Part shown: positions 1,906-11,987 of the stretch, one piece after another
How the letters are laid out: every line of letters begins with the position of its first letter
How positions within the stretch are numbered: position 1 is the first letter of the stretch
Assembly: GCA_029555925.1 (NCBI GenBank)
Contig: JAKPQU010000306.1
Span: 1 to 11,987, forward strand
Length of the DNA stretch: 11,987 bases
Source: Bacillota bacterium
GTDB taxonomy: Bacteria > Eremiobacterota > SpSt-956 > JAKJGF01
Direction of reading: 5' to 3'
Program-made: the position numbers and the translations under genes
Notes under the pieces: generated by a model
Database searches by the model: none
What the model was told of the DNA's origin: nothing
What the model saw: only the letters and a program-made list of their open reading frames with translations

Positions 1906-3921
1906 ATGATATACTGTCTGAGTTGCTGTAATAAAAATGATGATAAAGCAAAAATATGTAATTCCTGTTCTTCCAGTCTGGAATTCTGTCCGAGAGATAA
2001 AATAAAAAAAGAGATAGTACTCGGTGATAGATACAAATTGATATCACCCCTTCAAAAAGGAGGCATGGGTGAATTATATGCAGCCCTTGATAAAAGGCTT
2101 AACTGTGTCTGTGCCGTAAAGCTTCTTTATTTTGATTCACTTTCAGATGAAGAAAAAGATTACAGGGTGACAAGATTCAAGTCTGAAGTAGAAATTCTTG
2201 CAAGATTGCGCCATCCCGCTTTACCTCATGTGCTTGATTATTTTCTCGAAGACGATAAATATTATCTTGTTATGGATTATATTCCCGGTAATGATCTGCT
2301 CACCATAATGGAAAAGGAAAGAAAAAGATCTCTCGAAGAAGACAGGGTTATTAACTGGGCTCTGACTCTATGTGATGTACTGGATTATCTTCACAATAAC
2401 AAACCTCAGATTATATACAGAGACTTAAAACCTGATAATGTAATGCTTAGAGCCAGAGATAATCAGATAATCCTCATAGATTTCGGTACTGCAAAAACTA
2501 CAGACAGAGTGACAAGACGCCAGACAGCTATAGGAACGGTAGGTTATGCACCGCCCGAGCAGTATTCGGGCATACAGGATGTGAGAAGTGATATCTATGC
2601 TCTGGGAGCCACTATTTATCATCTCGTAAGCGGCACCATGCCTGTAATGCCTTTTGAATTCAAACCTGTAAGAAGGGTAAATTCCTCTGTTTCTACCAGA
2701 CTTGAAGCAATATTGATAAAAGCCCTTCAAAAAGAAGTGGAAGATAGATATCAGACTGCAAAAGACCTCAAGAAGGATCTTATGTCGGTAATTTCTATGG
2801 AAGAGGAAAAACCTACTGTCATAAAACTACCACCGGCTGAAAAAGAAGAAAAATGGGATCTTCTCGGAAGAATAAAAAAGAATATTGTAGATTCTTTGAA
2901 TAAATTGAAAAGAGAATTTTATACTCATAAAAAGATAAAGGTTTTTCTTGTAGAAAGTTCAGTAACCCAGAGTCTTTCCTGCAGAAAAGCTATTGAAAAC
3001 TCTGTTGATATAGAAGTAATCGAATATGCTTCCACAGGTGAAGAATGTCTCGGGAAACTTAATAAATCCCGTGAAAAACCAGATGTAATCTTAATGGATA
3101 TATCGGTATCGGATAAAAGCAGTATCGATGTAATAAGCAAGATAAAAGGTACCATGCCCTCTGCCAGAATAATAGTGCTCAGTTCCCAGGACCTTGACAG
3201 GGATACGGTTTTGAATTCTCTTAAAGCCGGAGTGGCAGGTTATGTTTTAAAGAAAGAAGGCCATGAAAATATACTGGAAAGTATAAGGAAAGCTGCACAG
3301 GGCGGTACACCTATAGAATCTGAAGTTGTTTCATATCTCCTTGATGAATTTGTAAATAAAACGAGAGAGCCTAAAGAAGCAGAACTGACAGGATTTGACG
3401 GATTTGAACTGGAAATACTTGATATGTTTGATTTACTTGTCGAATTCTGTTCCTGTGAGGTCACGGGAAAACTATCCATTAAATCCCCCCTTGAAGACGG
3501 CGATATATATGTGGAGAAAGGTAATATAACCCACTGTGTTTACGGTCAGATTACAGGGGAAGAAGCTTTCTATCAATCGGTAAACTGGGTTATCGGAAAA
3601 GGAAGATTTTATGCCGGAGAAACACCTGATAAGAGAACAATAAATATTCCTACTGATGAACTTCTTACCGAGGTTCTGAAAAGGAAGGAACAGTTTGTAA
3701 AGATAAGAGAAGTGGTAAAATCCCTTGATGATATTTTTAAAGTTCAACTGTCTACTTCTGCCATAGTTACAGTTCAGTCTGAATATTTGTATATACTGTT
3801 TCATCTGGATGAAAAGAAAACTGTAAGAGATGTGATGAAAGGCTCCGGCAAGACCTATTTCGATGTAGGAAAAGCAATCTATGAGCTGGTAGCCGCCGGT
3901 ATGGTAAAAAAAGTGCAGTAA
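1906..3921 (+). CDS. Zinc ribbon - Ser/Thr kinase - receiver - PATAN fusion protein
   Basis: A 671-aa soluble signalling protein. Domains in order: a zinc ribbon (C4-x2-C7 and C18-x2-C21); a PknB-type kinase at about 43-295 with glycine loop GGMG (52-55), K72, YRDLKPDN (171-178), DFG (192-194) and APPE (215-218); a charged linker; a NarL-like receiver at about 343-470 with phosphoacceptor D398, S426 and K449; a DUF4388/PATAN domain at about 498-595; and a C-terminal region (605-671) that looks winged-helix-like. The catalytic residues are all present, so kinase activity is expected. HRD is YRD, which is tolerated in bacterial kinases. The receiver's acidic pair is E350-S351, so its metal binding may be weak. 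Only a poor Shine-Dalgarno (GGTGAT, 1894-1899) precedes ATG. There is no transmembrane segment. The exported protein 24 bp downstream is probably co-transcribed. Confidence 0.93.
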   Translation: MIYCLSCCNKNDDKAKICNSCSSSLEFCPRDKIKKEIVLGDRYKLISPLQKGGMGELYAALDKRLNCVCAVKLLYFDSLSDEEKDYRVTRFKSEVEILARLRHPALPHVLDYFLEDDKYYLVMDYIPGNDLLTIMEKERKRSLEEDRVINWALTLCDVLDYLHNNKPQIIYRDLKPDNVMLRARDNQIILIDFGTAKTTDRVTRRQTAIGTVGYAPPEQYSGIQDVRSDIYALGATIYHLVSGTMPVMPFEFKPVRRVNSSVSTRLEAILIKALQKEVEDRYQTAKDLKKDLMSVISMEEEKPTVIKLPPAEKEEKWDLLGRIKKNIVDSLNKLKREFYTHKKIKVFLVESSVTQSLSCRKAIENSVDIEVIEYASTGEECLGKLNKSREKPDVILMDISVSDKSSIDVISKIKGTMPSARIIVLSSQDLDRDTVLNSLKAGVAGYVLKKEGHENILESIRKAAQGGTPIESEVVSYLLDEFVNKTREPKEAELTGFDGFELEILDMFDLLVEFCSCEVTGKLSIKSPLEDGDIYVEKGNITHCVYGQITGEEAFYQSVNWVIGKGRFYAGETPDKRTINIPTDELLTEVLKRKEQFVKIREVVKSLDDIFKVQLSTSAIVTVQSEYLYILFHLDEKKTVRDVMKGSGKTYFDVGKAIYELVAAGMVKKVQ

Positions 3922-4939: not shown

Positions 4940-4967
4940 TTGACTATTTAAAAAAAAAATATATACT
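4940..4967 (+). promoter_or_regulatory. Distal promoter P1 upstream of the XRE-cyclase gene
   Basis: TTGACT (4940-4945), 16-bp spacer, TATACT (4962-4967): 5 of 6 matches in each box. The predicted transcription start falls inside the palindrome that follows directly. It would give a leader of about 110 nt. Confidence 0.6.
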
Positions 4968-4988
4968 TAAAATTCCATTGGAATTTTA
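4968..4988. promoter_or_regulatory. Perfect palindrome, candidate operator
   Basis: TAAAATTCC, centre ATT, GGAATTTTA: perfect 9-bp arms touching the -10 box of P1. Its position over the predicted start site suits a repressor site. The XRE protein encoded at 5083 is the obvious candidate, but this is inference. Confidence 0.55.
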
Positions 4989-5030
4989 CTTTACACAAGA
5001 GACACGTTACAGGAATCAACTATGTCTTCA

Positions 5031-5059
5031 TTGATTTTTACTCTTATGCTCTATATAAT
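5031..5059 (+). promoter_or_regulatory. Proximal promoter P2 upstream of the XRE-cyclase gene
   Basis: TTGATT (5031-5036), 17-bp spacer, perfect TATAAT (5054-5059). The start site would be near 5066, about 17 nt before ATG, leaving room for the AGGGA ribosome site at 5072-5076. Confidence 0.6.
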
Positions 5060-5082: not shown

Positions 5083-5823
5083 ATGGACTTAAAAAAACTC
5101 GGTTCCAGAATTAAAACATCCCGTGAAAAAAGGAGATTGAAACAGACAGATATTGCAGGCGCTTTACAGATCAGTGCCCAGGCTGTGTCAAAATGGGAAA
5201 GAGGAGAGAATGCCCCTGATATCTCTGTTCTGGTAGAACTGTCCAGACTGCTCGGTGTAAGTGTTGAATGGCTTCTGGGAGGAACTATGGCGGAAACAGA
5301 CACATTTAATGCCACTGTATTCTGCACCGGTATTAACGGTTTTGCCGGTAAAGCTACTTTAATGGCACCGAAGGAACTTGCTTTATGGATGAATATTATC
5401 CATTATACAGTTACCGAAGCAGTGAAGAGATTTGACGGAGTTCCTGTAAAATATATAGGAGATGGTTTTCTTGGTTTTTTTACAGGCATAAATCATGAAG
5501 CGAGAGCACTGGAAGCAGCTAAAGAGAGCAGAAGATTGCTCAATATGCATGGGCTGATAATCACTCTCCATAAAGGCGATATTTTTCTCGGTCTTATGGG
5601 ACATCCTGATTATGAAAGACCTGATATAATAGGTGAAACTGTTAATACAGCTTTTCTTGTCATGCCATGGGTGGCAAAAAACTGTAAAACAGGTACAGGT
5701 CTTACAGATGCTGTGATGAATGAGCTGGCAGAAAGGGAAGAGTTTGTTAAATGCGGTGAGTTTTTTATCTCACATAATGAAACCCCGGTTATTATTTATG
5801 AACCTTTTATAGAAAAATTGTAA
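5083..5823 (+). CDS. XRE-type regulator with degenerate class III nucleotide cyclase domain
   Basis: A 246-aa protein. Residues 5-66 are a Cro/CI-type helix-turn-helix ([23 protein letters not shown]). Residues 75-243 match the class III cyclase fold: FCTGINGF (80-87), [11 protein letters not shown] (123-133), [12 protein letters not shown] (162-173) and [11 protein letters not shown] (181-191). K123 and D181 sit where adenylate cyclases hold their adenine-selecting Lys and Asp, and metal ligand D127 is kept. The first metal Asp is Gly (G83), and the transition-state Arg, four residues after N188, is Leu (L192). The domain is therefore probably catalytically dead and may bind an adenine nucleotide to control DNA binding. 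AGGGA 6 nt before ATG sets the start. SAH hydrolase follows after 101 bp on the same strand. Confidence 0.85.
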
Positions 5824-5863: not shown

Positions 5864-5891
5864 CGTCACGCGTCACGCGTCACGCGTCACG
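5864..5891 (+). repeat. Heptamer array, 4 perfect CGTCACG units
   Basis: Four identical contiguous units, ending 33 bp before the true ATG of SAH hydrolase, in the same sense as the gene. Read as codons in the SAH hydrolase frame it gives residues VTRHASRVT, which would wrongly extend the predicted protein upstream. Confidence 0.92.
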
Positions 5892-5924: not shown

Positions 5925-7328
5925 ATGGTTAAGACAGATTATTATGTAAAAGATATTAACCTGGCAGATTTCGGTAGAAAGGAAATTATTATAGCAGAAC
6001 ATGAAATGCCGGGTCTTATGGAGACAAGAAAAAAATACGGCCCGTCAAAACCTTTAAAAGGTGCCAGAATTATGGGAAGTCTTCATATGACAATTCAGAC
6101 AGCAGTTCTCATTGAAACACTGGTTGAACTGGGAGCAGATGTGAGATGGGCATCATGTAATATATTTTCCACACAGGATCATGCCGCTGCCGCTATAGCA
6201 AAAGCAGGTATACCGGTATTTGCTTATAAAGGTGAAACACTGGAAGAATACTGGGAATTTACCAAAAAAGCTCTCACATGGCCCGATGGTAAAGGCCCAA
6301 ATCTTATTGTAGACGACGGAGGAGATGCTACATTAATCATTCATAAGGGTTATTACGGAGAAGAAAATCCGTCTCTTCTGAATGAAAAGGTTGATAATAA
6401 AGAACTTGCTATTGTATATTCCGTTCTCCGTCAAAGCCTTAAAGAAGACCCTCGGTTCTTCCATCGTCTTGTAGCAGATTGTAAAGGTGTGTCGGAAGAA
6501 ACAACAACAGGTGTAAAAAGACTTTATCAGATGATGGACAGGGGAGAATTACTGTTTACTGCCATAAATGTAAATGATGCTATTACAAAGAACAAGTTTG
6601 ATAATATTTACGGATGTCGCGAATCGCTGGTAGATGCCATTAAACGCGCTACAGATGTTATGATTTCCGGGAAAACTGCCATGATATGCGGTTATGGTAA
6701 TGTAGGGAAAGGTTCGGCAGAATCCCTTGCAGGACAGAAAGCCCAGATAATGGTAAGTGAAGTAGATCCGATATGTGCATTACAGGCACTTATGTGTGGC
6801 TACAGGGTTGTTACGGTAGAAGATGCACTTCCGATTGCAGATATTTTTGTAACAGCTACAGGGAACTGTAATGTCATCACTGCAGAACATATGTCGAAGA
6901 TGAAAGATCAGGCTATAGTCTGTAATATAGGACATTTTGACAATGAAATAGAAATGGATAAACTCGAAAGCTGGCCCGGTATAAAGAAAGAAAATATAAA
7001 ACCGCAGGTAGATAAATATATATTCCCTGACGGACATTGTATATATGTACTTGCAGAAGGCCGTCTCGTAAATCTAGGATGTGCTACAGGGCATCCCAGT
7101 TTTGTAATGTCTAACAGTTTTACCAATCAAGTTATGGCACAGATTGATCTCTGGACTAACAGACGCAAGACAGGTGTTTACAGGATTGATAAAAAACTGG
7201 ATGAAGAAGTTGCAAGACTTCATCTTGGGAAACTGGGAGCACATCTGACAGTACTTACGGAAAAACAGGCAGATTATATAGGAATATCCCCTGAAGGGCC
7301 TTTCAAGTCAGATCATTACTGCTATTAA
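5925..7328 (+). CDS. ahcY: S-adenosylhomocysteine hydrolase (adenosylhomocysteinase)
   Basis: Cytoplasmic NAD-dependent enzyme that splits S-adenosylhomocysteine into adenosine and homocysteine, clearing the product of SAM-dependent methylation. The 467-aa length fits the long bacterial/plant form, with the roughly 40-residue insertion at about 110-185. Visible residues: H54 (GSLHMT), [14 protein letters not shown] (77-90), DDGGDAT (130-136), EETTTG (191-196), K222 and D226 ([11 protein letters not shown]), the NAD loop GYGNVGKG (256-263), and the C-terminal K461 and Y465 that complete the NAD site of the partner subunit. GAGGAGG (5911-5917), 7 nt before ATG, fixes this start; an upstream ATG at 5832 would add 31 residues read through the heptamer array. 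No SAH riboswitch was recognised in the 101-bp leader. Confidence 0.97.
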
Positions 7329-7340
7329 GGGATATGTAAT

Positions 7341-7367
7341 GCGTAATGCGCAATGCGTAATGCGTAA
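7341..7367 (-). repeat. Degenerate heptamer array (GCGTAAT units)
   Basis: GCGTAAT, GCGCAAT, GCGTAAT, GCGTAA in tandem, the purine-centred orientation of the heptamer family. It lies between the SAH hydrolase stop codon and its terminator. Confidence 0.8.
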
Positions 7368-7453: not shown

Positions 7454-7588
7454 ACATAAGTGTATCATAATTTATTAGAATTTAAGTGGTCGTGACGCGT
7501 AACGCGTAATGCGTGACAGGTTTATATCCCTGTGCATTATGTATCACGATTTTAATTGTTTATAAATTTATATGAAATTAACTATAAT
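7454..7588. mobile_element. MITE-like element, copy 2 (about 135 bp)
   Basis: The left end (7454-7480) is a diverged version of copy 1, with TTATTAGAATTTAAG and GTCGTGAC. The interior has heptamers CGTGACG, CGTAACG, CGTAATG, CGTGACA (7491-7518), then a CAGG...CCTG turn (7517-7532), then opposite-strand heptamers GCATTAT GTATCAC (7534-7547). The right end TATGAAATTAACTATAAT (7571-7588) matches the right terminal repeat of copy 1. The two heptamer arms face each other, so the centre could form a cruciform. The 321-bp spacer 7329-7649 holds a heptamer array, the terminator and this element, and no gene. Confidence 0.65.
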
Positions 7589-11173: not shown

Positions 11174-11201
11174 CGTGACGCGTAACGCGTAACGCGTGAC
11201 G
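11174..11201 (-). repeat. Heptamer array, 4 units
   Basis: On the minus strand: CGTCACG, CGTTACG, CGTTACG, CGTCACG, the same unit order as the array at 214-241. It ends 19 bp before the GH13 ATG, between the promoter and the ribosome site and in the sense of the gene. Confidence 0.92.
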
Positions 11202-11217
11202 CGAGGTAATAGATATT

Positions 11218-11921: not shown

Positions 11922-11987
11922 ATTATAGTGTATTTCATAACTTATTAGAATTTAAGTTTGTCGTGACGCGTAACGCGTAACGCGTGA
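11922..11987. mobile_element. MITE-like element, copy 3, cut by the window end
   Basis: The left terminus ATTATAGTGTATTTCATAAC is identical to copy 1 over 20 bp. CTTATTAGAATTTAAGTTTGTCGTGAC continues with one inserted T and two substitutions relative to copy 1. Purine-centred heptamers CGTGACG, CGTAACG, CGTAACG and a partial unit follow (11962-11987). The right half lies outside the window. Confidence 0.72.

Follow-up and report, generated by a model that had tools for sequence, protein, structure and literature searches.

SahR, the repressor of Proteobacteria that responds to S-adenosylhomocysteine (SAH), is a winged-helix protein of the ArsR family. The gene for SAH hydrolase, ahcY, is also a target of the SAH riboswitch. 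Mycobacterial cyclase–LuxR proteins join a cyclase domain to a helix-turn-helix (HTH), as does the protein described here, with an HTH of a different class; we know of no link between them and the methyl cycle. In the literature searched, the repressor proteins found to respond to SAH are SahR, whose core regulon is given as sahR, ahcY, metH, metF, metK and, in part, metE (PMC4239095), and McbR. Both belong to families other than the present one, of which we found no description in the literature searched (open-licence PMC papers only).

The window, that is, the whole stretch of 11,987 nucleotides analyzed here, encodes on its forward strand a 246-residue protein (5083..5823) that we have named XC, an XRE-type HTH followed by a pseudo-class-III-cyclase domain. 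Like SahR and SamR, XC is predicted to be autoregulated, and its candidate regulon is close to the SahR core regulon (PMC4239095). However, SahR uses another DNA-binding family and a 20-bp palindrome, whereas XC combines XRE and cyclase folds with the element CAAC-N9-ATTG. SahR is found in Proteobacteria, whereas we saw XC in samples of Planctomycetota, Hydrogenedentota, Nitrospinaceae and Armatimonadetes. McbR is likewise a protein repressor of methionine genes that answers to SAH, for XC a candidate ligand, but it is a TetR-type protein of unrelated fold that acts on methionine and cysteine biosynthesis in Corynebacterium. The SAH riboswitch also places methionine-cycle genes under the control of SAH, the candidate effector of XC, but it is an RNA; an Rfam search of 13 sources returned no SAH or SAM riboswitch at gathering scores, the sole match being a tRNA.

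Residues 1-66 of XC (5083..5280, forward strand) form the Cro/CI-type HTH domain. PF01381 matches residues 10-64 above the Pfam cut-off (E 2.5e-14), the P22 C2 repressor is the best match among solved structures, and five helices are seen in the predicted structure. Matches in both Pfam and NCBIfam are to XRE/Cro/CI types, and the ArsR-type winged helix that is a trait of SahR is absent. Residues 70-246 (5290..5820, same strand) adopt a class III cyclase fold in the predicted structure. An earlier note on this DNA had read the protein as a Cro/CI HTH joined to such a fold, and the Pfam match and the model of the C-terminal domain agree on this point.

Alignment to solved cyclase structures places K123 and D181 at the adenine-selecting Lys/Asp pair. 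As to the two metal-binding Asp residues of the enzymes, D127 is present and position 83 is Gly, while the transition-state Arg, four residues past the Asn, is replaced by Leu192. When XC was aligned with 119 close relatives (120 rows in all), K123, G126, D127, G128, H174, D181, G184, V187 and N188 proved invariant. Position 83 was Ser in 94 rows, Gly in 15, Asp in 4, Thr in 4 and Asn in 3, and position 192 was Leu in 114, Ile in 6 and never Arg.

A wider set of 48 distinct fusion loci (37 sample loci, the window, nine further loci and L081, a contig from a viral collection) retained K123 and D181 in 47 loci each, D127 in 41, N188 in 40, Asp83 in 5 and Arg192 in 4; none combined all six catalytic residues. 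Thus, compared with class III adenylyl cyclases such as CyaC, CyaB, OaPAC and Rv1900c, most members lack the first metal Asp and the catalytic Arg, and they never keep both along with the remaining site residues. The 28 rows linked to ahcY have K123, D127, H174, D181 and N188 without exception (28/28 each), with Ser (19), Gly (6), Thr (2) or Ala (1) and no Asp at position 83, and Leu (23), Arg (3) or Gly (2) at position 192. The three ahcY-linked members that keep Arg192 (L118, L119, L121) have lost Asp83, and both metH-linked members keep Asp83. An unfused cyclase with intact residues and no XRE domain (L117) was left out of the family counts and the tree, its upstream region remaining within the set of 49 used below. 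From these residues we infer that cyclase activity has been lost in XC. Model, alignments and the 48 loci together uphold the earlier suggestion of an XRE one-component regulator whose cyclase-fold domain lacks catalytic residues and retains an adenine pocket.

XC is a member of an old fusion family, older and wider than one sequence could show. A protein search returned 905 proteins at E ≤ 1e-3, the best 120 being 55-100% identical over 91-100% of the query, and the altered cyclase site is, judging from the alignments, a conserved state rather than the decay of a single genome. An origin from mobile elements was considered and rejected: among the plasmid and phage matches listed (the best 20 of 482 and the best 20 of 39 records) none spans as much as 80% of XC; coverage reaches 68% in the best of the listed plasmid matches, and most of those listed take in the HTH part only.

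Downstream of XC on the same strand lies ahcY (5925..7328; TIGR00936, 599 bits against a cut-off of 497.6), whose ATG start at 5925 was chosen by eye from the open reading frame. Its closest named relative, 96% identical, is from a Candidatus Eremiobacterota MAG. The two genes are probably co-transcribed. The XC–ahcY order recurs at 28 of the 48 distinct loci, always on the same strand and with gaps of -7 to 175 bp. Genome samples from six phyla, each centred on one XC relative, contained 37 fusion-type XC genes, and 27 of these were followed by ahcY on the same strand: 12/12 in the phylum of L005 (Hydrogenedentota), 8/8 in that of L007 (Nitrospinaceae), 2/3 in those of L004 and L006, 1/3 in that of L016 (Armatimonadetes) and 2/8 in that of L001 (Planctomycetota). 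At 20/48 loci ahcY does not adjoin XC; these are 10 of the 37 sample loci, the nine further loci and L081. Within phyla the occurrence of XC is patchy (at least 3/201, 8/24, 8/294, 12/68, 2/14 and 3/40 genomes). On the tree, which was built without L002, L010 and L117 and in which protein-only rows carry no gene-order label, the ahcY-linked rows fall into three separate, large and well-supported groups. For the nearest relatives, 18 of 119 longest-contig sizes in the XC protein list recur in the ahcY list, compared with a chance estimate of 0.55 and a maximum of 4 in 2000 trials, which suggests that the two genes share contigs there as well.

Other methyl-cycle genes also neighbor XC. Two genomes from the phylum of L001 have metH directly after it, G601 has metK just upstream, and metE stands next to it on L081. 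The latter contig (IMG/VR; 2415-8093) carries consecutively a gene resembling ribonucleotide reductase (by eye), a full-length XC relative and metE; it may be viral, with a regulator of the methyl cycle on board, or else have been misfiled.

Expectation-maximisation on the XC upstream regions, the window's own among them, yielded the motif a.tCAAC.g..gCGTCATTGt, with a score of 761 as compared to 391-413 in five shuffled sets. It exceeds 14 bits in 33 of 49 distinct upstream regions. In the window, the predicted operator AATCAACTATGTCTTCATTGA (CAAC-N9-ATTG; 5014..5034, forward strand, 17.9 bits) is the single match to TCAAC-N9-ATTG over the whole length, 0.11 being expected by chance. A second, weaker copy tends to lie 21 bp upstream, i.e., two helical turns away (mean score -1.6 at this offset, versus a mean of -31.3, sd 5.3, at other offsets). 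The best -10 box is spaced 17 from the TTG within the motif in 18/33 cases, so that the operator covers the -35 box, and the promoter predicted here (TTGATT-17-TATAAT; 5031..5059, forward strand) overlaps the operator in this manner. The promoter scan is by itself weak evidence, because 5 promoter-like sites were found in the window versus 3.8 expected. The position of the predicted operator over the -35 box argues that XC would repress its own operon.

The earlier note had instead placed the operator at the perfect inverted repeat TAAAATTCCA-t-TGGAATTTTA (4968..4988). This assignment did not hold, since the conserved element is the one at 5014-5034 and the core of the palindrome occurs in 1/49 upstream regions, the window's alone; it was accordingly dropped as a family operator. 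A few other XC loci carry inverted repeats unrelated to this palindrome, which is possibly the operator of another regulator. A second promoter-like site, TTGACT-16-TATACT (4940-4967), directly precedes it. In L015, some 290 bp upstream of where XC starts, a second strong operator-like site (26.9 bits) on the opposite strand faces minus-strand genes, one of them UroD/MtaA-like by eye.

The candidate regulon was scored on sequence outside the motif training set. A predicted operator was found upstream of glyA in 3/30 loci (24.1 bits in G005, 22.5 in G583, 14.1 in G578) and upstream of metF in 2/30 (22.3 bits in G408, 20.9 in G348); a further match at a metF locus (L299, 16.8 bits) falls downstream of the gene start. 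The reversed motif, used as a control, scored above 20 bits in 0/89 loci and above 16 bits in 3/89. We discarded metK as a target, as 29 loci were without a site except for XC's own promoter beside a metK fragment in L339.

The most discriminating test concerned ahcY genes apart from XC. Among 17 genomes considered, 15 had an ahcY match, and its lack in G009 and G266 is possibly due to incomplete assembly. The separate gene has a predicted operator of 16.6-18.0 bits in 4/15 genomes (G408, G294, G617, G003), each time the best of its locus, on the same strand and about 125-170 bp upstream. The site in G294 is the sole strict-pattern match in that genome, and in G408 the gene is just about 2.6 kb from XC. 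There was no predicted operator at the separate ahcY in 11/15 genomes. In five of these the XC pocket is altered (G011, G013, G014, G032, G060), and in two others a segment of the HTH has changed (G002, G010). G015 has no site there despite operators at XC, which in this genome lacks K123, D181 and N188; G001, G008 and G345 have none although their XC shows an apparently unchanged HTH core and an unaltered pocket.

Across 32 genomes the strict pattern gave 99 matches, versus 49 for the reversed control; XC promoters account for 22 of them. All but six of the remaining 77 lie inside some open frame of at least 100 codons, a weak test because the glyA sites also count as covered. A large regulon was thus rejected on the strict pattern, with just glyA (G005, G583) and ahcY (G294) standing out. 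Downstream genes were inspected for 11 of the 77; in G579 (L188), an intergenic match is followed by a gene that by eye resembles a 2-oxoacid oxidoreductase. Considering the SahR-type targets, XC is connected in some genomes to its own gene, ahcY and metF by operator and to metH by adjacency, while metK has no operator.

On these grounds we favor, with somewhat better than even confidence, the view that XC acts as a one-component repressor that controls its own gene along with the activated-methyl (SAM/SAH) cycle, and that its pseudo-cyclase domain binds an adenosyl compound, likeliest SAH. Its parts differ in strength: that XC regulates the methyl cycle seems to us very probable and an adenine-containing ligand probable, while for SAH specifically the case stands evenly balanced. 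From the computed fold, residues, gene order, operator and candidate regulon, we infer a scheme of repression by dimers, ligand binding and allostery. At the XC–ahcY operon an XC dimer would bind CAAC-N9-ATTG where it covers the -35 box, often with a second dimer on a tandem site at a distance of 21 bp. In some genomes XC would also bind before a separate ahcY, metF or glyA, and bound XC would block RNA polymerase. The cyclase-fold domain, presumably no longer making cAMP, would hold an adenosyl metabolite, likeliest SAH, in a pocket at the dimer interface, where the Lys/Asp pair that selects adenine and the Asn on the ribose side are kept. The ligand would then alter the dimer geometry so that DNA is released, switching on SAH hydrolysis and homocysteine remethylation. 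Because the two subunits of a class III cyclase dimer enclose the pocket between them, a ligand there could determine how far apart the HTHs stand.

A pocket with adenine and ribose contacts from which the triphosphate machinery is mostly gone would fit SAH. As a dead-cyclase regulator standing before SAH-recycling genes in many little-known bacteria, XC probably senses this compound. With operator, candidate regulon and candidate ligand named, a single purified protein and a single DNA fragment suffice to test the proposal. A signaling-enzyme fold has apparently turned receptor, in several phyla with few studied regulators; if our reading is true, XC would be a clean case of a cyclase active site rebuilt into a ligand pocket, and might serve methyltransferase assays as a protein-based sensor of SAH.

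Some branches of the family have diverged. Seven rows (support 100/99; L115/L152, L116/L153, L009, L148, L011, L013, L014) have lost D127 and N188 and kept K123 and D181, and they precede purA (L009), acnA for aconitase (L115/L152, L116/L153), a class II aldolase gene (L148) and others. Two of them, L009 (23.5 bits, before purA) and L115, keep an operator of more than 23 bits. Since both pocket and neighbors are altered, the ligand of this branch may differ. One genome, G006, holds two paralogues, L147 with a full pocket before ahcY and L148 with the altered pocket before the aldolase gene. L002 and L010, from Syntrophus and Syntrophorhabdales MAGs, keep K123, D127, D181 and N188; next to them lie a gene that by eye is thyX-like and one for a small membrane protein, and upstream both share the element AGGTTGATTTATTTAAACC, which does not resemble the main operator. 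The neighbors of both groups make it seem that the family has been re-used. Tentatively, just short of an even balance, we propose that XC represents an undescribed, widespread family of SAH sensors derived from an adenylyl cyclase, its catalytic side decayed and its adenosine side kept, with the branch lacking D127 and N188 re-tuned to purA and acnA through a similar operator.

The same data can be set against other ligands. The earlier note had suggested ATP, cAMP, adenosine or a related molecule; the neighbors and operators point to ahcY, metH, metE, metF and glyA, making SAH or another adenosyl compound likelier than ATP or cAMP. The effector might also be SAM, as co-repressor, or free adenosine, as a signal of AhcY activity, rather than SAH. 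Both contain the adenosine part, and metK is found just upstream of XC in G601, but the recycling genes ahcY, metF and metH make up an SAH-type regulon and the 29 metK loci are without a site other than XC's own, so that we regard this as unlikely. Slightly less likely still is a domain that binds ATP, ADP or AMP and reports the energy or adenine-nucleotide state; the methyl-cycle genes would then be one of its outputs, given the ATP that SAM synthesis consumes. The kept residues, being those of the adenine and ribose sides, would suit it, as would the 23.5-bit operator of L009 before purA and the two members before aconitase. However, the positions of Asp83 and Arg192 serve the triphosphate in class III cyclases, and these residues are gone in 28/28 and 25/28 of the ahcY-linked rows; moreover, the main targets belong to the methyl cycle, and the purA and acnA members are precisely those without D127 and N188.

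Two further readings dispense with a sensed ligand or with a dead enzyme. Class III cyclases act as dimers and many XRE repressors require just a dimer domain, so the cyclase fold could be a mere dimerisation module of a ligand-free autoregulator; yet K123, D127, D181 and N188 are invariant in the 120 close relatives (54-91% identity to the window protein) and in 28/28 ahcY-linked rows, and invariant pocket residues are not needed for a plain dimer interface, which leaves this reading quite improbable. That XC still slowly makes a cyclic nucleotide or other product is, in our judgment, very improbable. It could draw on the retention of D127 and of the Lys, Asp and Asn, on Asp83 in 5/48 and Arg192 in 4/48 loci, and on 4/120 and 0/120 close relatives, respectively, but all six catalytic residues occur together in 0/48 rows and Asp83 is absent from the ahcY-linked rows.

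Two other features of the window were observed. A single protein encoded at 1906-3921 joins a Ser/Thr kinase, a receiver domain and DUF4388 in this sequence, an order that to our knowledge is not common. Arrays of heptanucleotides (CGTCACG, CGTAACG and variants) lie mostly between genes, including the XC–ahcY gap, at 214-241, 925-954, 1144-1157, 1853-1875, 5864-5891, 7336-7367, 7491-7514, 11174-11203 and 11962-11985; their 13-base unit has 32 matches in the window with at most 2 mismatches, versus 0.03 expected.
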